NCBI GenBank assembly: GCA_030705925.1
Contig: JAUZPM010000013.1
Coordinates: 1 to 41,322, forward strand
Reading direction: 5' to 3'
From: Bacillota bacterium
GTDB taxonomy: Bacteria > Bacillota > Clostridia > Oscillospirales > Feifaniaceae
DNA length: 41,322 nt
Numbering within the stretch: the stretch's first letter is position 1; the number at the start of each line of letters is the position of its first letter. The position numbers and the translations under genes are program-made. Positions 1 to 41,322 of the stretch are shown in pieces. The notes beneath the pieces are model-generated. The model was given only the letters and a program-made list of their open reading frames with translations, had not been told where the DNA came from and made no database searches.

Positions 1-3000
1 AATGAGCAGAACAACGATGCATATGATTCTCTTGAGATCTATAATGCATCAGGGCATACGCTTAATTTGAAGGATTACAAGATTGGCGAAAAAGTTGATT
101 CAGGTAAAATGGACGACCCGTTATTTACAGGAGATACTGTTTTTACAAATATTAACGACATAACAAAAACTTCAACTATGTGGGGCAATACTGATAAAGA
201 GCCTTCAGAAATACCAATGAAGGCCGGAGAGGCATGGACGGTTTGGGTCAAATACCTTCCTAGTGTAGTAAATTATGATGTAGACAGTTTCAAAGCACTT
301 AATTATGATAATCTTGCAAATGTTGTGCTCTATGCGGATCCTAATAAATCGGTTCTCGCAGAGTGGCCGGCAGACAAGGGACCTACAGCAGCCCCGTCTG
401 ATAAATATGATCCTAACAGAAGCAATTTTTATTTGACGAATTTCGGGATTTACGGCACCAGCGATTCAAAACGTATCTTTTTGTATGTATTAAAAAAGAC
501 GGCAGAAATTGACGGCTCAAATATTCAGTCAGTCGTCAAAAATCCTGATGATATAGTGTCATATGCTAAATACTATCGTACAAGCTCCGTCGACAGCGGT
601 GCGTCAAATCTGTTAACATATGCGGGCGACGGCTGCATGAAAATGTCGAACAGCAATGTTGATAACAGCATGGGCAAGATTTACAACTGGCAAAAGCCCG
701 TTTATTCTTTTGACAAAGAAGCACCGCAAATCACTTTTAACCCACCGGCTGTTTTATCACCCGGAAGTGCCAATATTACCGCATCAGTTAAAGATGACTA
801 TGATCTAAGGGTCGGACGTGTATATTATAAGACTGATTCGATGAGCGATTGGATGTCTGTTGAAGATGATTTTACATTTGACGATTCTAGAGATAAAACT
901 GCTGCGACTTTAACAACAAAGATTCCTCAGGTGAAACTTGATGGCACATCAAAAGTTGAATATTATATCGAGGTTTCAGATGGCGGCGGCAATAAAACGT
1001 ATGCCGGATCGAGGGATAACCCTTACACTGCTAAAGTAAGTGACCAGGTAGCACCTGTAGTCAGTGATATTTACCCCGCAGACGGAAAGGCGATTTCCGG
1101 AATGTTTACCGGCTATGTCTCGGCAAAACTGTCTGATGATTTTGGGATTGATCCGTCTTCCGGAGTTGTTACGATTAAGCAGGGTGACACGGTAGTCCTT
1201 AACAGACAAGTTCCGGCCAAGGGCGTGTCTGATATTGGCCTTTGGTGTAATATAAATGACAAGTACTTTTTGCCCGGCAGTTACAAATTAACCGTTTCTG
1301 TTAAAGATAAATCCGGAAATATTGCTGAGAATACGACCTCATTTACCTTTAAGGCACCCGAGGCAGGACATATTTATCACATGTCACCCAAGGTGACAAA
1401 CCTCGGCGAAAATACTACACTATCTGCTGCTATAGGCGAAAGTGCAGATACAATGACACTGCACTATGGACTTGCGGGAAGCGGTAAGTTTGATACGATT
1501 GATATGAGTGCAGCAGAAAAAAATGACGGGTATTCTGTATTTACTGCTGACGCGGCTTCGGATAAATTCGCATCTCTTGGGCGTATCGATTACTATTTTA
1601 CATCCGGTGATGTAACATCTGATACTTACACAGTTTCGACTGACGGTAAGTCTTTCTCTGAATTACTTTCTTCAGATAAACCTTTACGCTGGCTGTTTAT
1701 AGGGGATAGTATAACGCATAACTTCTCACATACTGGGGCTATGAATAACTATGTTGAGATGCTCGAACAGCGGGTAAAAGTTGAGATGGGCAGATCGAAT
1801 GACGTATTTGTCAACTCTGGTGTCAGCGGTCAAAAAACTAATGACGTTTTAGTAGGTATTGAGCAGCAAGCTTTGCAGTTTGAGCCGGACGTCATATTTA
1901 TAAATATCGGCATGAATGACAGAGGGGCAATCAAACCTGATGACATTGCACTATTCAAGTCAAGACTCAACACAATCGTAGACAAGCTTCGCAATATCAA
2001 CGGAAAAGTTCCGAAAATATGCCTTTTGACTGTTGTTCCCAGAGGCTCAACATACACAATGGATTATATGGCGAATTATGAAACTGTAAATCAGATCTAC
2101 TATACTCATCTGGATATTGTTCGCGAACAGGGACTTCAGTATGTTGATCTTTTCAAACCGTTTATGTTGGAGCGTGACGTTGACCCGATAAATAACGTAG
2201 CTAATTTCCATACAGACCCTACCCATCCGAACCGCAGAGGTCACCTGCTTATGGCAACAAGCATTATGAAGGGCATTGGCATTTACGATCCCAAAAACAG
2301 CGCAGTTTGCAGTCTTAACGGGGAAGATTATTTAAACAATGTTGATATAAGACCTGCTGCGAAAATCGATTATTCTTCTGATGGATCAGTAAGCGGAACA
2401 TTCAAAAAACTTGTAGGCGGATCAATAGACTGGGGTATCATAGGAGCAAATCAAATGCTCGGCATGAGCACCTATACCGGTGGCAGAAGCCTTTCAAGGC
2501 AGTTGGAAAACGGCATTAGAAACCGCACATCGACTGCTTCTGTATATGAAAACCGTGTGCTGAACTTCTCGACGGCCGACGCCACGCCAGGATATTTTGC
2601 CGAAAATCTTAATACTTTAATCGGACCAAATACTCCAGACAGCAGTCATCCTATTAAATATTACATCATAATGCCGGAAGTTCCGGACGTTTATAAGGAT
2701 GGATATCAGCATTCGGCCGACAAGGTTGCACAGTATAAGGCAGATGTTACGGCTCTGCTAAGCAAAACTAAAGCTGATCTAAATATTATTGTGACGCCTC
2801 CCGCATCCTCTGATGCGAAAATAAATGGCTATCTCGCCGATTATGTTAAGGCGTTGCATGAGATAACTCTTGATGATTCGTCTGCACTTATTGATGTATA
2901 TAAAACAATGAATGATAATATGAACAATATCCCGTGGCTGTCACGCAACTGGTTCTTACAGGATGGAACAATCAACTATGTTGCTGCACGTGATATTGCG

Positions 3001-3936
3001 ATGATGATTCTTACATCAATAAACGAAAATGGCGGCGATATTTTATATTCTGACCTTTCAACCACATCTTTCAGAGATACCGGAAGCGGAACCCGTTATG
3101 ATAATATAGCGCCAAGTTACACAACAGACGGTCTTAATACGGTAATCGATGTTTCAAATATTTTAAGCGATAAACTTTACAGCGGAAAAGACTTAACCTT
3201 TGCGGTAAGCAGGGAACCAGCAGTTAATACTCATTTTAACAGCGGTGATGACAAACAGATCGCGTATGCAAAAGCAAATGATGGGAAAATAACGATCCGT
3301 GAAGGAAAAGCCGGGACATATACCTATCGTGTGTTAGTACAGGATAAAGGACTAACGACAGAACTTAAAGATATTACCGTTACACTTTCAGGGGGGACAG
3401 CCGTTACCGATATTGCTCCTGAACATTGGGCATATGATTATGCAATGGGACTTTTGAACGTGGGAATTATAAGCGGTGAGTCAGCAGATAACGGCATATC
3501 ATTAAGACCTTCCTCTAATATTACCAGAGAGGAAACTGCAAAGATCCTGACCGGCGTGTTTAACCTTCCGGTTGTGACAGGAGAAATTGCAAACGGTGAT
3601 AATTCATCCGACTGGGCAAAAGATTATCTTGCGACAGTTAATGCAAAAGGCATCATGCTAGGAACAGACGGCATGATGAACGGCCGAAATACAGCGACAA
3701 GAGCTGAGGTTGTCGCAATGCTCGGCAGGGCAATGGGTAACTCTGATGCGGATCTTTCTAAGCTTGAGGGATATGCCGATAAAGGAAGTATTCCTGATTG
3801 GGCTAAAAGCGGCGCTGCTGTATTAATTAAAGCAGGCGTCATAGGCGGGTATGATGACGGTTGTCTGCATCTTGAACGCAGCATAACACGTGCTGAACTA
3901 TTTGCAATGGTTTCACGTATCCTAGCCTCTAAATAA
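1..3936 (+). CDS. Surface protein: LTD, Ig-like, SGNH hydrolase and three SLH domains (5' end outside window)
   Basis: The reading frame is open from base 1, so the N-terminus lies upstream. An in-frame TTG at 67 is probably not the start, because coding-like sequence (DAYDSLEIYNASG) precedes it. Module order, numbered from base 1: lamin-tail-like domain (about residues 1-215), Ig-like modules beginning near EAPQITF and APVVSDIYP, then an SGNH/GDSL hydrolase. The hydrolase shows GDSIT with Ser at 1708-1710, an SGVSG block, GMND with Asn at 1915-1917, and DPTHPN with Asp 2215 and His 2224. A second domain of similar size (about 2330-3040) has GAN where GDS is expected and no G-x-N-D. Three SLH repeats follow from about 3400 (HWAYDYA, SDWAKDY, PDWAKSG). 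It should sit on the cell wall through SLH and deacylate a carbohydrate or ester substrate. The substrate is unknown. Confidence 0.88.
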   Translation, partial: NEQNNDAYDSLEIYNASGHTLNLKDYKIGEKVDSGKMDDPLFTGDTVFTNINDITKTSTMWGNTDKEPSEIPMKAGEAWTVWVKYLPSVVNYDVDSFKALNYDNLANVVLYADPNKSVLAEWPADKGPTAAPSDKYDPNRSNFYLTNFGIYGTSDSKRIFLYVLKKTAEIDGSNIQSVVKNPDDIVSYAKYYRTSSVDSGASNLLTYAGDGCMKMSNSNVDNSMGKIYNWQKPVYSFDKEAPQITFNPPAVLSPGSANITASVKDDYDLRVGRVYYKTDSMSDWMSVEDDFTFDDSRDKTAATLTTKIPQVKLDGTSKVEYYIEVSDGGGNKTYAGSRDNPYTAKVSDQVAPVVSDIYPADGKAISGMFTGYVSAKLSDDFGIDPSSGVVTIKQGDTVVLNRQVPAKGVSDIGLWCNINDKYFLPGSYKLTVSVKDKSGNIAENTTSFTFKAPEAGHIYHMSPKVTNLGENTTLSAAIGESADTMTLHYGLAGSGKFDTIDMSAAEKNDGYSVFTADAASDKFASLGRIDYYFTSGDVTSDTYTVSTDGKSFSELLSSDKPLRWLFIGDSITHNFSHTGAMNNYVEMLEQRVKVEMGRSNDVFVNSGVSGQKTNDVLVGIEQQALQFEPDVIFINIGMNDRGAIKPDDIALFKSRLNTIVDKLRNINGKVPKICLLTVVPRGSTYTMDYMANYETVNQIYYTHLDIVREQGLQYVDLFKPFMLERDVDPINNVANFHTDPTHPNRRGHLLMATSIMKGIGIYDPKNSAVCSLNGEDYLNNVDIRPAAKIDYSSDGSVSGTFKKLVGGSIDWGIIGANQMLGMSTYTGGRSLSRQLENGIRNRTSTASVYENRVLNFSTADATPGYFAENLNTLIGPNTPDSSHPIKYYIIMPEVPDVYKDGYQHSADKVAQYKADVTALLSKTKADLNIIVTPPASSDAKINGYLADYVKALHEITLDDSSALIDVYKTMNDNMNNIPWLSRNWFLQDGTINYVAARDIAMMILTSINENGGDILYSDLSTTSFRDTGSGTRYDNIAPSYTTDGLNTVIDVSNILSDKLYSGKDLTFAVSREPAVNTHFNSGDDKQIAYAKANDGKITIREGKAGTYTYRVLVQDKGLTTELKDITVTLSGGTAVTDIAPEHWAYDYAMGLLNVGIISGESADNGISLRPSSNITREETAKILTGVFNLPVVTGEIANGDNSSDWAKDYLATVNAKGIMLGTDGMMNGRNTATRAEVVAMLGRAMGNSDADLSKLEGYADKGSIPDWAKSGAAVLIKAGVIGGYDDGCLHLERSITRAELFAMVSRILASK

Positions 3937-15310: not shown

Positions 15311-16237
15311 ATGGCTAGACAATATCTTATTAGAAGTGAGGGTAATTGGTATAAATCCAATCTTCACTGTCACACAACCTGTTCTGACGGGAAGCTGACC
15401 CCGGAAGAGGTAAAAGAGCTTTATAAATCTCACGGGTACAGCATTGTCGCATACACTGATCATAATAAGCTTATCAACCATAAGGAACTTAATGACGATA
15501 AATTTCTCGCTCTATGCGGCTATGAAATTGATGTTATCGATCATTCAAAGCCATATCAGCGTTGCTGTCATTTAAACGCAATTGCAAAAAATCCTGAAAC
15601 AGCTGAGTTTCAGGGTTCGCTTGAAGAATACTCTGCAGATCATATTAATAAAATGATTGAAAAATTAATTTCATCGGGGTTTATTGTAAACTATAATCAT
15701 CCGTCTTGGTCGATGGTGGAATCTGAAGAAATATCAAAGCTTCATGGGTTTACGGCTATAGAAGTTTATAATCACAGTGCACAGATGCATTTAAATTCAG
15801 GTTGTTCCTCAACGCAATACGGACTGTTTATAAGAAACGGCGGAAAAGCATATTCTATAGCGGCCGATGATAATCATAATTTTGATAAAATCAGAAGCAC
15901 AAGTTCTGACTCACTTGGAGGTTTTACTGTTTTAAAAGCCACCGATTTATCATACAAATCGATCATTGATTCGTTTGAAACAGGTAATTTCTACTGTTCA
16001 TCAGGGCCTGAAATATATGACTATTATATAGAAGACGGCAAACTTTGTTTGCACTGTTCGCCAATTGCAAGCGCCCTTCATAGAAATGAAAAGATCATCG
16101 GCGGGCATATCTCTTCCTCGGAGAACGACATTACATATGTAGAGTTTCCTATACGCGAAGAACAGCCATTCGGTTATATTGAAATTTCAGATTTAAACGG
16201 AAAAACAGCATTTACTAATCCAGTTTATTTTAAATAA
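15311..16237 (+). CDS. PHP-domain metallohydrolase
   Basis: 308 residues. The metal-binding PHP motifs are clear: NLHCHTTCSDG near residue 18, AYTDHN, CGYEIDV, NYNHPSWS and AADDNHNF. PHP proteins use two or three metal ions to hydrolyse phosphoesters. The exact substrate is not deducible, but this stand-alone type resembles 3',5'-nucleotide bisphosphate or phosphoesterase-like members. It begins 14 bases after purL's stop, with GGGAGAGAGAG before the ATG, and is therefore co-transcribed with purL. A strong terminator follows. Confidence 0.85.
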   Translation: MARQYLIRSEGNWYKSNLHCHTTCSDGKLTPEEVKELYKSHGYSIVAYTDHNKLINHKELNDDKFLALCGYEIDVIDHSKPYQRCCHLNAIAKNPETAEFQGSLEEYSADHINKMIEKLISSGFIVNYNHPSWSMVESEEISKLHGFTAIEVYNHSAQMHLNSGCSSTQYGLFIRNGGKAYSIAADDNHNFDKIRSTSSDSLGGFTVLKATDLSYKSIIDSFETGNFYCSSGPEIYDYYIEDGKLCLHCSPIASALHRNEKIIGGHISSSENDITYVEFPIREEQPFGYIEISDLNGKTAFTNPVYFK

Positions 16238-35732: not shown

Positions 35733-35761
35733 TTGACATTGTATATATTACTAATTACACT
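35733..35761 (+). promoter_or_regulatory. Promoter of the giant LTD-repeat protein
   Basis: TTGACA (35733-35738), 17-bp spacer, TACACT (35756-35761), about 48 bases before the ATG. A GAGGAGAGG ribosome binding site precedes the start. A second AT-rich candidate, TATAAT at about 35713-35718, lies upstream. Confidence 0.65.
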
Positions 35762-35809
35762 TAACCTGTAGCAAAATAGTATATTTTGATTTTTGAGAGG
35801 AGAGGTAAA

Positions 35810-38800
35810 ATGAAAAAAACCAACAGATTGCTGTCTATTCTTCTTGTGTTTGGCATGATAGCGGGGCTATTACCTGTTTCCGTATTTGCTGACGGGGAGA
35901 CTGGTACTACGATTAATCCGATTCCGGAAATCATAGTAACAAAGGTAGTAATAAACGGCGCAAACTACACTGCTAGTGACGGCACAAGTATTGCTCAAGA
36001 TGCTTATGATGTACTGGAGATTTATAATGCATCAGGCAAAACGTTAGATCTTAGACAATATGGAGTAGCATTTAAAAAAGATACTCCTACAGATTTGCTG
36101 ACAGGAAACTCTACTTTTTCATCATTTGTAGGAACTACTACAGGGACGCAGATCAACCGTTTTACAGCAGGGTCAAGTTATTGGACAGGTTATACTGAGG
36201 ACACAAGTAAACCTATACCATTTGCTCCTGGTGAAAGCAGACTCGTGTGGGTCAGATATATACAGTCTGGATACCTTGCAGGAGGCACATATAATAAATA
36301 CTTGGATGAGTATTTGAACTTAGGTCTTGAAAAAGTCGCTAAGGCTTACAAATATGATCCTAGTAAGGTCGTTGTGGCGGAATATCCAGAACAGAACGGA
36401 CAGATTGTAGCTCCGCCAACTACAAATACTGCTGGCACTAACTTTTATCTCGATATGAAAACGACCGAGAGAAGCTGGTTCTACATAGTAAAACAAGATT
36501 CTAGCGGTAATATAACAGCGTCACAAAATACCAATGAGGTATTAAGCGCCGGAACAGTAGTTAGTACTAACTCTTGCATGAGACCTAATACGAGTGACAA
36601 CGGCGCATCGTGTTCCCTTGCATATGATGCGAATACAGGCGTTTCTCATGTATCATATACTGACGCCACTACAAACCGTTACAATGTTGCAATTTCTTTA
36701 AATGATTATTTTGGTGCGTTAAACTATAATGAATATCCGGTTTATATTTCAGAGACAAATGCGCCAACCATAACGAATAAAACCTCTGAACCTCTTAGCG
36801 ATTCGACAATTTCAGCAGATTTTGCTGACGATCAAAGTATTAAATATATTGAAGTTGACTATAAAAATCCAAGTGACACAGCTTACACCGTATATAAGAA
36901 AGATTTTGTTGAAGACGGCGACGTTTTTTATGACGCTACCGGCGCAACTGGATCTGTAAAGAATTATTCTTTAAATTTAAAATTATCGGCTGACTTTATT
37001 AAATCACCAACAATCCAGTATACAATAAAGGTTATTGATACCGCTAATAATACTACGATATTAGATAACAGCGGGTCTCCGCTTACTGCAACAGCTATTA
37101 CAACCGACGATACAGCAGCAGCGGCAACTTTAGACACTGCGATTGACGGACTTGGCGCAACGCCAACAATCGACGCTGTAAAGGCTGTTCGTTCTCAGTT
37201 CGAACTTCTTACCCCAATACAAAAAACATTGGTAACGAAATACAGTGCTTTAGTGGCGCTTGAATCATCACTATATACTTACGGTCTTAGAATAACAGAA
37301 ATTGCTCCTGATCCTAATTCGCCTTTGAAAAAAGCTTCCGCTGATGGTGCTGACCACACAGAATTTATTGAAGCGACGGTAATTGGCAGCGATCCAATTC
37401 CTCTCTCGGATCTTAAAATCGATATGGTTATGGGCACTTCGTATACTGCTTATACAGATTCAGTTTTCCTGACAGAAGACGGAGCTCCTAAAGTATTGAT
37501 GCCGGGTAAGACCTATCTATTCGGAGTTTATCAAACGGATTCATATAGCTCAGGCTATAAGTATAAATCATATACAGAGAGACAGGCATATTGGCAGTCG
37601 TTTACTGATATTTACGGTATTTCAGCTGAACCGGGATGCCGCATTATTGTTCCGGCTAAGAGTGATATCGATAATTCAACTTATGATACTACCTGCACAA
37701 ACCTATGGAACAGCGGTGACAAAAACGTCATTACATTCACAAAGATTTCTACAAGTACGGCTGTTGCAACTGCAGGATATAGTACAACAGCAGTTGGCTA
37801 CGGCGGTAATGGCACTTCATTAGTTTATGTGTATTATCCAGGCTGTGCCACAAATCCAGTTGAGAGCTTGCTTTATAATCAGGCTGGCGGGATGACGCCA
37901 GGAACAATTTATCCGTTCCAGATATCTGCGGATCAAGATTCATTTAATGCTGCTGTGGCTCCTTATAATGCTGCAGTTGTTGTAGATGCTCAGATTGCAG
38001 CGCTAAATTCTGCATCTGCCACATATAAAGATGATGTGAAAGCAGCACGTGCAGCATATGATGCTCTTACTGCAGATCAAAAAGCATACGTATCCAAGTA
38101 TGCGCTTTTAAGAGCAGCAGAGAAAGCTGTTTATGATTATAAACTTGCTGTAACCGAGATTTTATTCAATGCTGAATATCTGGCGAAAGGAACGGCAACT
38201 CTTGGAAATGAACACTCTGAGTATGTTGAAGTAACTGTAAAAGGTACAGATCCAGTTTTACTTGATGATCTAACCATGAATCTTATAATGGGCGCAGATG
38301 ATAAGCAGCTTACAAACCCCAGTGCGTCTTTTGTGACACAGTCAACTGTAAGCAGATGGCTGCAGCCGGGACAGACTTACGTTTTCAGCAACTACAACGG
38401 GGATTCTTATAAGTGTGGTTATAAATACTCGTCAGATGCTGATCTTGAAACGATCCGTACAGATTTCAATACTTTCTATAGCTCCAACGTGGCTAAAGAA
38501 AACTTTATAGTTGTAGTAATGAATACTGAAACTGATGGATCAAGCATCGATCTAAGAGGCGGACTTTATAACAGCGGAACTGATGATATAGTAGAATTTT
38601 TATCAACGTTGCATGACAACAAGACAATAGCACATGCGGAATATGATCCTGAAGGTTTATATCCGGATGCACAAAGCAACTCAGCAATTTCTTACGGATA
38701 CTTTGATAACCAAGTCAATGATATGATAGTTGACACTTCAGCATATCCGACTCCGGGTACAATCAAGGCCGTTCAGAATAATCCAAATGCAACAACAATT

Positions 38801-41322
38801 GATGCATATATTGATTCGATTGTAAACGAAATTCCAAGTCCTAAAATGCTTGGTATTCTTAAGAGCCTGATTGACACTTTAACGCCTGAACAACAGGCAA
38901 CTCTTACTAATTTAAATGAATACAATACGTGGATTAATAAGTATAAATCTCTAGGCGCGGCAACTAATAATTCAGTTGTTGTAACCGGCATTTCTTCAAA
39001 TCCTGCAGGTACAAACAACCAATTTGGTTATGTTGAAGTGCTTAATAACGGAAATACTGCTGTTGATTTGAGAAACTATAAACTTGCATATACTAAGTCT
39101 ACAATTAACTATGTAATGTTTAACGAGATCCAGAAGTATGCATCAGGCGACGCTATGGCAGAGCCAGGAACAGATGATACAAATCACGATAACCCTGCTT
39201 TCTTAGAGCCAGGTGAAGTTGGGGTAATTTGGATTAAGAATGATACATCTACTACAATAAAGAATTATACAACTGCACAATTCCTTACTGAATATGGCGC
39301 AAAAGCAAAGATATTTGTTGTAAAGCCTATGGCTGTTGGAACCAGTGCCGGTCAAACACCAGCGGCAGCAGGAACGAATTTCTATATTGACAACTATAGT
39401 GCGACTACAGGCGGTTTCGTCTATCTGATTGATAAGGCGGCAGATAACACAACGCTCTCCATAAAGCCACGCAGTGATGAATCTACAAGCTTTGATACAT
39501 TATACTTAAAGAATTATCCTAATGGATTTATAAGCGGCGTAGCTGCATACGGTCCTGACCTTGGCGGAGGACTTACCTCAACTGCCGGACATCTTGATGG
39601 AACATACGCAAATTTCAGATATGACGCTAATAACGATGCTTCTTTATTCGTTGATGCGGAATACTTGATAACAGGCAGTACCATAGCGGCAAGTGGAATC
39701 AACGCTGTTACAGTTGCATCGTCAACTGAATCTCATAAACAGTCTAATCTTGGAATTTTGAAATACACTTATATTCCTTATGATTTAGGCGATGTTACAG
39801 CCCCTAAAGCGGATGATTTTAAAGCAACTGGCAATAATACAACAATTTCATTTACTGGTACTGTAACAGATGATACTGATGTAAGATATGTTGAATTTGG
39901 TTATAAACTGCCAGGCGATACTGCCTATACAAAGACCACTCTTGACCTTGTACAGCAGCAATGTCTTGCAGAAAAAAATGATTCAGCTAAGACTTCAATA
40001 TCTGTCGCTAATACAACATCTTATCCATTCTCTAAAGATGTTACCGGTACTTTTACAGATGGAACGGTTGTCTCTTATTACCTAAAAGCTATTGACGGTA
40101 ATAACAATACATTAAGCAGCGGAACTGAAGAAGCTCCTTTAACTCTAACAGTGAGTACGTCAGGAACTTCACAGGCAGTAACTGATACAATTAATCTTAT
40201 TAATGCAATTGGATCTACGCCGACTGAGACAACAGTCGATGCTGCACTAAGTGCCTATACTGCACTTTCACCGACAGACCAAGCTCTGGTTACAAACTAT
40301 TCCACACTTACTGCTGCGATGGATACACTGGCTGTAAGCATTGCAAAAGCAGCTGTTACGATTCCATCTACAACCATAACTGGAGATTTTAAAGTTTCTA
40401 CAAGCTATTCAACGAAGTATGGCCTTGTATTTCTGTCATGGAACTCAACAAATGCTGCAATCGTTTTCGAAAATGACAGCGGTAATGCTTATGTAACACG
40501 CCCTGCATATGGGCAGCAGGATGCGGCGTTTACTGTAGCTGTAGGATTTGCCAAGGGCGCAGCGAACGATTCAAATTCGTTTAACGTTACTGTTCCCGCC
40601 GAAACTGCTACATTATCAACGGATGCAACATTATCAAACATAACGCTTGACGGAACGCCAGTAGAAGGATTTAGTTCTACAAAATACACCTATGATGTTG
40701 TACTTCCATATGCGGCGACCCAAGCTCCATTAGTCGCATTTACTACAACAGATAAAAACGCTAATGCTGTTACTTCACAAGATCAAACCATCCCGAGCTC
40801 TGTTGTTATTAACGTAACTGCGCAGGATGGAGCGACAAAACTTGCGTATACAGTAAACTTCACACGAGGCTTACCATCAACGAATGCAAACTTATCGAAT
40901 ATAGAACCGTCAATGGGAACACTTGATAAGACATTCGATACCAACACAACGGATTACACAGTTGTTCTTCCAACCGGAACTACAACAGTTCCGAATATAA
41001 CGGTAACACCGGAAGACACAACAGCGACTGTTGTACCTATTTCGGATAGCCCAATAGTGCCGGCGACAATAACAATAACAGTAACAGCGCAAGACGGCAC
41101 AACAACAAAACAGTATTTCGTTCACTATGTAATAGGCAAATCGAAAGATGCGACACTGAAGGATCTGCAGGTCAACGGTACAACAGTAAGCGGCTTTAGT
41201 TCCTCAGTAGATACCTACAATGTGACGCTTCCATACGGAACATCAGTTATCCCGTCAGTAACGGCAACAACTAACAGCACACTTGCAAACGCAGTTGTAA
41301 CGCCAGCTGATAAAATTGACGG
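35810..41322 (+). CDS. Giant secreted LTD-repeat surface protein (3' end outside window)
   Basis: Open from ATG 35810 to the window end, at least 1837 residues. A signal peptide (KKTNRLLSILLVFGMIAGLL, cleavage likely after VFA) is followed by four lamin-tail-like modules starting near residues 35, 491, 780 and 1055 (LEIYNASGKTLDLRQY, HTEFIEATV, HSEYVEVTV, FGYVEVLNNG). Four helical spacers of one pattern, ALTADQKAYVSKY-like, lie near 434, 721, 990 and 1454. Ig-like modules lie near 313 and 1332. At least three cadherin-like beta-sandwich repeats run from about 1605 (DATLSNITLDGT, NANLSNIEP, DATLKDLQVNG). The first LTD plus Ig part is homologous to the protein at 1-3936. It is probably wall-anchored, but the anchor is beyond the window. 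No catalytic motif is seen. Confidence 0.9.
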   Translation, partial: MKKTNRLLSILLVFGMIAGLLPVSVFADGETGTTINPIPEIIVTKVVINGANYTASDGTSIAQDAYDVLEIYNASGKTLDLRQYGVAFKKDTPTDLLTGNSTFSSFVGTTTGTQINRFTAGSSYWTGYTEDTSKPIPFAPGESRLVWVRYIQSGYLAGGTYNKYLDEYLNLGLEKVAKAYKYDPSKVVVAEYPEQNGQIVAPPTTNTAGTNFYLDMKTTERSWFYIVKQDSSGNITASQNTNEVLSAGTVVSTNSCMRPNTSDNGASCSLAYDANTGVSHVSYTDATTNRYNVAISLNDYFGALNYNEYPVYISETNAPTITNKTSEPLSDSTISADFADDQSIKYIEVDYKNPSDTAYTVYKKDFVEDGDVFYDATGATGSVKNYSLNLKLSADFIKSPTIQYTIKVIDTANNTTILDNSGSPLTATAITTDDTAAAATLDTAIDGLGATPTIDAVKAVRSQFELLTPIQKTLVTKYSALVALESSLYTYGLRITEIAPDPNSPLKKASADGADHTEFIEATVIGSDPIPLSDLKIDMVMGTSYTAYTDSVFLTEDGAPKVLMPGKTYLFGVYQTDSYSSGYKYKSYTERQAYWQSFTDIYGISAEPGCRIIVPAKSDIDNSTYDTTCTNLWNSGDKNVITFTKISTSTAVATAGYSTTAVGYGGNGTSLVYVYYPGCATNPVESLLYNQAGGMTPGTIYPFQISADQDSFNAAVAPYNAAVVVDAQIAALNSASATYKDDVKAARAAYDALTADQKAYVSKYALLRAAEKAVYDYKLAVTEILFNAEYLAKGTATLGNEHSEYVEVTVKGTDPVLLDDLTMNLIMGADDKQLTNPSASFVTQSTVSRWLQPGQTYVFSNYNGDSYKCGYKYSSDADLETIRTDFNTFYSSNVAKENFIVVVMNTETDGSSIDLRGGLYNSGTDDIVEFLSTLHDNKTIAHAEYDPEGLYPDAQSNSAISYGYFDNQVNDMIVDTSAYPTPGTIKAVQNNPNATTIDAYIDSIVNEIPSPKMLGILKSLIDTLTPEQQATLTNLNEYNTWINKYKSLGAATNNSVVVTGISSNPAGTNNQFGYVEVLNNGNTAVDLRNYKLAYTKSTINYVMFNEIQKYASGDAMAEPGTDDTNHDNPAFLEPGEVGVIWIKNDTSTTIKNYTTAQFLTEYGAKAKIFVVKPMAVGTSAGQTPAAAGTNFYIDNYSATTGGFVYLIDKAADNTTLSIKPRSDESTSFDTLYLKNYPNGFISGVAAYGPDLGGGLTSTAGHLDGTYANFRYDANNDASLFVDAEYLITGSTIAASGINAVTVASSTESHKQSNLGILKYTYIPYDLGDVTAPKADDFKATGNNTTISFTGTVTDDTDVRYVEFGYKLPGDTAYTKTTLDLVQQQCLAEKNDSAKTSISVANTTSYPFSKDVTGTFTDGTVVSYYLKAIDGNNNTLSSGTEEAPLTLTVSTSGTSQAVTDTINLINAIGSTPTETTVDAALSAYTALSPTDQALVTNYSTLTAAMDTLAVSIAKAAVTIPSTTITGDFKVSTSYSTKYGLVFLSWNSTNAAIVFENDSGNAYVTRPAYGQQDAAFTVAVGFAKGAANDSNSFNVTVPAETATLSTDATLSNITLDGTPVEGFSSTKYTYDVVLPYAATQAPLVAFTTTDKNANAVTSQDQTIPSSVVINVTAQDGATKLAYTVNFTRGLPSTNANLSNIEPSMGTLDKTFDTNTTDYTVVLPTGTTTVPNITVTPEDTTATVVPISDSPIVPATITITVTAQDGTTTKQYFVHYVIGKSKDATLKDLQVNGTTVSGFSSSVDTYNVTLPYGTSVIPSVTATTNSTLANAVVTPADKID
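40622..41322 (+). repeat. Tandem cadherin-like beta-sandwich repeats in the LTD-repeat protein
   Basis: Three consecutive units starting near 40622, 40880 and 41144, each opening with (D/N)A(T/N)LS(N/D)-x-(I/L) and ending in VTAQDG-T-K-x-Y-x-V. The third is cut by the window end. They are about 85 residues each, diverged in DNA sequence, and likely extend further. Confidence 0.75.

Follow-up and report, generated by a model that had tools for sequence, protein, structure and literature searches.

Gene and domain order at the contig end

The window, meaning the whole stretch of DNA analysed, is contig C13 at its full length of exactly 41322 bases, and the end of the window is the end of the contig. 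A giant surface-protein gene lies there on the forward strand (35810..41322). Its frame is open from the ATG at 35810 through the last base of C13; 1837 aa are seen, and the 3' end is missing. A purine-rich ribosome-binding site, GAGAGGAGAGG (35795..35805), and a signal peptide, MKKTNRLLSILLVFGMIAGLLPVSVFA-D (35810..35893), were read directly on the same strand. The promoter-like site TTGACA-17-TACACT (35733..35761, forward strand) is a consensus match only, and such sites were no more numerous than in shuffled sequence. No overlap was found between the last 150 bases of C13 and another contig of the genome. The start of contig C21 was considered as a continuation of the gene and rejected: nothing joins the C21 frame to the window frame. 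Elsewhere in the window, an ORF open at the window start (1-3936) carries GDSL lipase and SLH domains and represents a second surface protein, of the SLH kind. A stand-alone PHP / CehA-McbA-like protein (15311-16237) adjoins a single-chain FGAM synthase.

The 1837 aa are ordered LTD1-Ig1-S1-LTD2-S2-LTD3-S3-LTD4-Ig2-S4-aBig_2-cadherin-like x3, with every module on the forward strand; S1 to S4 are short helical spacers. LTD1 (35912..36784) and LTD4 (38966..39799) belong to subtype A, and LTD2 (37286..37957) and LTD3 (38147..38776) to subtype B. Over the whole protein the lamin-tail domain (LTD, PF00932) scored 50.3 bits against the curated Pfam cut-off of 34.3. Taken singly, the modules fell below that cut-off: LTD1 scored 18.8 bits, LTD2 17.0 and LTD4 31.1, and LTD3 had no Pfam match. 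Profiles built from paralogs on other contigs detected LTD1 (E 1e-40), LTD2 (5e-35) and LTD3 (3e-23); LTD3 is homologous to LTD2 and to the paralogs' LTD-B modules. LTD4 was found with E 4e-7 when the profile included LTD1 and weakly, with 0.02, when it did not. As a control, the best of 2000 shuffles of the modules' residues reached at most 12 bits. The sequence-only reading had proposed four lamin-tail-like modules, and all four are of LTD type by profiles; support from fold prediction is confined to LTD2.

A model of S1-LTD2-S2, obtained from three window rows, had a mean pLDDT of 58, with about 82-90 in S1 and mostly 60-80 in the LTD2 core. The best 15 PDB matches of the LTD2 model in Foldseek were all lamin tails (top E 2.5e-5), and alignment to lamin A/C with VIA-align gave Z 8.6 over 107 residues at 3.2 A. 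LTD2 is thus predicted to have the lamin-tail fold. The model of LTD4-Ig2-S4 was poor: LTD4 remained under pLDDT 50, and the usable parts were the spacer and part of Ig2, which gave weak matches to diverse beta sandwiches only. The modular reading passed the structure check in those modules amenable to folding, with LTD2 modelled as a lamin tail and S1 and S4 as helical bundles of the same kind.

Ig1 (36785..37108) was detected by a paralog profile (E 2e-8) and has no Pfam match; it is homologous to Ig2 (39800..40159; E 2e-9). The two Ig-like domains stand inside the LTD-spacer part, one between LTD1 and S1 and the other between LTD4 and S4, and the strict LTD-spacer alternation first described does not hold. 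Ig-like units had also been placed after that part. There, an atrophied Ig domain of the aBig_2 family (40343..40600; 33.7 bits, cut-off 27) does precede the cadherin-like units. These, PF12733, were confirmed in tandem as three stretches (40613..41320; 40.4 bits, cut-off 24.2), the last one truncated where the contig stops. In the 1837 aa available, domain-profile search recognised no family of enzymes. In the same part there was neither a PHP domain nor a calcineurin-like phosphoesterase of the ShfP type, nor SLH (PF00395); the C-terminus, where paralogs carry SLH, is missing.

Helical spacer and its distribution

The four spacers had been read as copies of one element. When left out of the profile, S1 (37109..37288), S2 (37958..38146) and S4 (40160..40342) were each recovered with E 1e-8 or better, and these three are clearly homologous at the sequence level. 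S3 (38774..38968) is divergent and its homology marginal: left out, it scored 11.2 bits, where the top one of 2000 shuffles reached 10.6, and 3.9 with a paralog-only profile; its position and the pattern DxxI..LTPEQQ agree with the other copies. The motif AxxAYxALTxxQKxxV, proposed for all spacers, fits literally in S2 only. S1 was predicted as a small bundle of four helices, and S4 showed the same pattern (pLDDT 75-90) in the second, mostly poor model.

Searches of Pfam and the PDB gave no significant match or family for the spacer. The helical part of Cry1Ca (VIA Z 7.3) was set aside, its score being in the range of chance helical-bundle matches. Within the order, the spacer was present in 44 genomes and LTD in 69, each out of 295. 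The spacer occurs in unrelated proteins and is widespread in large surface proteins. Six copies were seen in a Bacteroidales giant (L102, 5336-11809) and five in a membrane-fusion-like protein of Lachnospiraceae (L103, 8909-11815). Naming the spacer would aid annotation, since it is widespread and has neither a Pfam family nor a solved structure that we could find.

In the lists for the order, one further protein (G015) combined LTD and spacer; it carries laminin G, metallophosphatase, fn3 and LTD, with the spacer about 170 residues further on. A search with the composite profile in 391 genomes from the class and 398 from the phylum found no full-length spacer-LTD composite elsewhere, the other matches being spacer alone or LTD alone; these are overlapping draws and samples, so that absence from them is not proof. 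Seven further genomes from the organism's own family gave no LTD match.

LTD paralogs in the genome

Across the genome, 38 LTD matches fell in ten long ORFs, and there were 99 SLH matches; the SLH proteins and the overall gene content suggest a Clostridia-like Bacillota. Three of the ten ORFs are cut by contig ends, namely those on C46 and C56 and the window gene. The other seven are named here by contig as C1, C4, C10, C38, C17a, C17b and C17c. C1, C4, C10 and C38 are complete, putative phosphoesterases with S-layer anchors: each combines a CehA/McbA-type PHP domain with three C-terminal SLH domains. C17c carries PHP but lacks SLH. A PHP hydrolase is therefore present in five of the seven paralogs uncut by contig ends, four of these five with SLH. 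The motifs HSH, DH, NHP and EDNH were all read in C1, C4, C38 and C17c; for C10, where reading covered the N-terminal part only, HSH and DH were seen. Judged by these motifs, the PHP sites look intact. Like the window protein, C1, C4, C10 and C38 have LTD, Ig-like and cadherin-like modules and a signal peptide. They differ from it in having PHP and SLH and no spacer, whereas the window protein has spacers and lacks its C-terminus.

C17c (L012, 11377-18615) is a single frame of 2412 aa with six tandem LTDs and one more around the PHP hydrolase. Further Pfam names for this protein were disregarded; no matched stretch passes alone. At the start of the contigs in the pairs C38/C109 (53-184) and C4/C94 (4-111), ends of SLH genes have the same coordinates within each pair and equal or near-equal scores, which suggests that near-identical SLH tails break the assembly at those pairs.

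The closest paralogs of the window protein are C17a and C17b: identity is about 31% across residues 1-705 of C17a and 39-42% for the cadherin/aBig_2 region. Among the complete paralogs C17a is nearest; it contains LTD, cadherin-like and aBig_2 domains along with InlB-type repeats, and lacks both an enzyme and SLH. Number and order of modules differ from those of the window protein, and C17a has two consecutive spacers before its aBig_2 and InlB-type repeats. Past the TAA of C17b there is a cadherin-like remnant in another frame with an internal stop (L011, 13286-13915, contig C17); from its sequence, C17b resembles a gene whose 3' end has decayed, located between tandem paralogs.

A composite of LTD-A, Ig, spacer and LTD-B, which makes up part of the alternation, is common to the window protein and the tandem paralogs C17a and C17b. 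Within the window protein the LTD-Ig-spacer unit is present in duplicate (28% over 461 aa), and the C17 paralogs likewise have a duplicated spacer-LTD-B unit. LTD-B modules retain a conserved core across paralogs. Because the composite recurs in C17a and C17b and its LTD-Ig-spacer unit is duplicated within the window protein, the alternation is best seen as the probable outcome of duplication and shuffling of composite modules.

Proposed role and relation to known proteins

Mosaics of LTD with Ig, cadherin and SLH modules and phosphoesterases have already been described (PMC11488536), and several tandem LTDs in one bacterial protein are reported by Mans 2004, as cited in PMC6085458. Secreted calcineurin-like phosphoesterases of the ShfP type (Bacillus subtilis ShfP radiation, PMC11488536) likewise are large and have an N-terminal LTD followed by Ig-like domains; their relatives carry SLH, cadherin, FN3 and laminin G modules. 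The window protein differs from ShfP in having no phosphoesterase in the part seen, four LTDs rather than one, and helical spacers between LTDs. ExeM of Shewanella oneidensis (PMC6085458) is also a secreted protein with an LTD, but it has a single copy together with two nuclease regions; no nuclease domain occurs in the part of the window protein seen. The remark that no described bacterial protein is known to alternate in this way is borne out for the composite in so far as the other genomes sampled lack it; the spacer, however, is common, and LTD mosaics and tandem LTDs are published. Judged by the literature consulted and the genomes sampled, what is new in detail is the spacer-LTD composite and how far the family has expanded. 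The window protein arranges its domains in an unusual way but is of a known kind, not a new one.

An adhesin or scaffold is favoured by its signal peptide, by the string of binding-type domains and by the absence of any recognised enzyme from the 1837 aa seen. We consider it about an even chance that the protein is secreted, probably non-catalytic, and binds an anionic surface polymer as a member of a lineage-expanded LTD family. The domain order, the homologies, the family and, by prediction, the lamin-tail fold of LTD2 are direct results; secretion, ligand, lack of an enzyme and mode of attachment are inferred. The LTDs would probably be the heads that bind the ligand, with Ig-like domains and short helical bundles keeping them apart, and the cadherin-like units would form a stalk toward the missing C-terminus. 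The ligand may be an anionic polymer of the cell surface such as extracellular DNA, teichoic acid or a similar polysaccharide. For the LTD and Ig domains of ShfP-like proteins, binding to eDNA or surface polysaccharide has been predicted (PMC11488536); no ligand is shown for bacterial LTDs in the work cited, and cells can largely dispense with the LTD of ExeM in degrading DNA (PMC6085458). In a family of about ten giants expanded in this lineage, SLH-anchored PHP hydrolases and enzyme-free members share LTD, Ig and cadherin-like modules, and domain duplication and shuffling among them may have produced the LTD-spacer alternation.

Since the C-terminus is missing, the main rival is an SLH-anchored ectoenzyme. 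The part beyond the contig end would then hold a CehA/McbA-type PHP hydrolase and three SLH domains, with the LTD, Ig and cadherin-like modules presenting substrate. This is the arrangement of C1, C4, C10 and C38, which combine LTDs, a PHP domain, cadherin-like modules and three SLH, and bacterial LTDs often accompany phosphoesterases (PMC6085458, PMC11488536). With a PHP hydrolase in so many of the uncut paralogs, the window protein may be catalytic too. The order of modules argues against it: the PHP-SLH paralogs have a single cadherin-like unit after PHP, whereas three cadherin-like units come first in the window protein, with no PHP, and C17a, the nearest of the paralogs, lacks both enzyme and SLH. 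We regard an anchored hydrolase as somewhat unlikely. The earlier observation that no enzyme is visible is true of the 1837 aa seen, but absence of an enzyme from the protein is not inferable from it, because the protein is incomplete while five paralogs have a PHP hydrolase.

Serial Ig-type folds, the divergence of the LTD copies and generic spacers that separate modules in unrelated proteins too would also suit a mainly passive spacing rod within the S-layer or cell wall, its LTDs being Ig-like building blocks that have no specific ligand. Against such a rod are the conserved core of LTD-B across paralogs and the lack of SLH in the 1837 aa of the window protein, and we consider it improbable. 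An alternation produced by misjoined repeats is hardly credible. The draft genome is fragmented (115 contigs), and several contig ends fall within giant repeat genes; the repeat copies, however, at ~25-40% identity are far too divergent for misassembly to have created them, and the composite is also found on another contig, in the C17 paralogs. The scaffold or adhesin role suggested by the sequence-only reading remains the best guess from the sequence, for a protein with its C-terminus missing.

More speculatively, and with only a slim chance of being right, the roughly ten giants with shuffled LTDs might act jointly as a surface system specific to the lineage, SLH-bearing enzymes and spacer-bearing non-enzymatic members capturing and degrading a phosphate-rich polymer in a cellulosome-like division of labour. 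What lamin-tail domains do in bacteria is not established in the field, and a genome with 38 LTD matches, in hydrolase-bearing and hydrolase-free versions, is a good test ground for LTD binding to DNA, teichoic acid or glycan.
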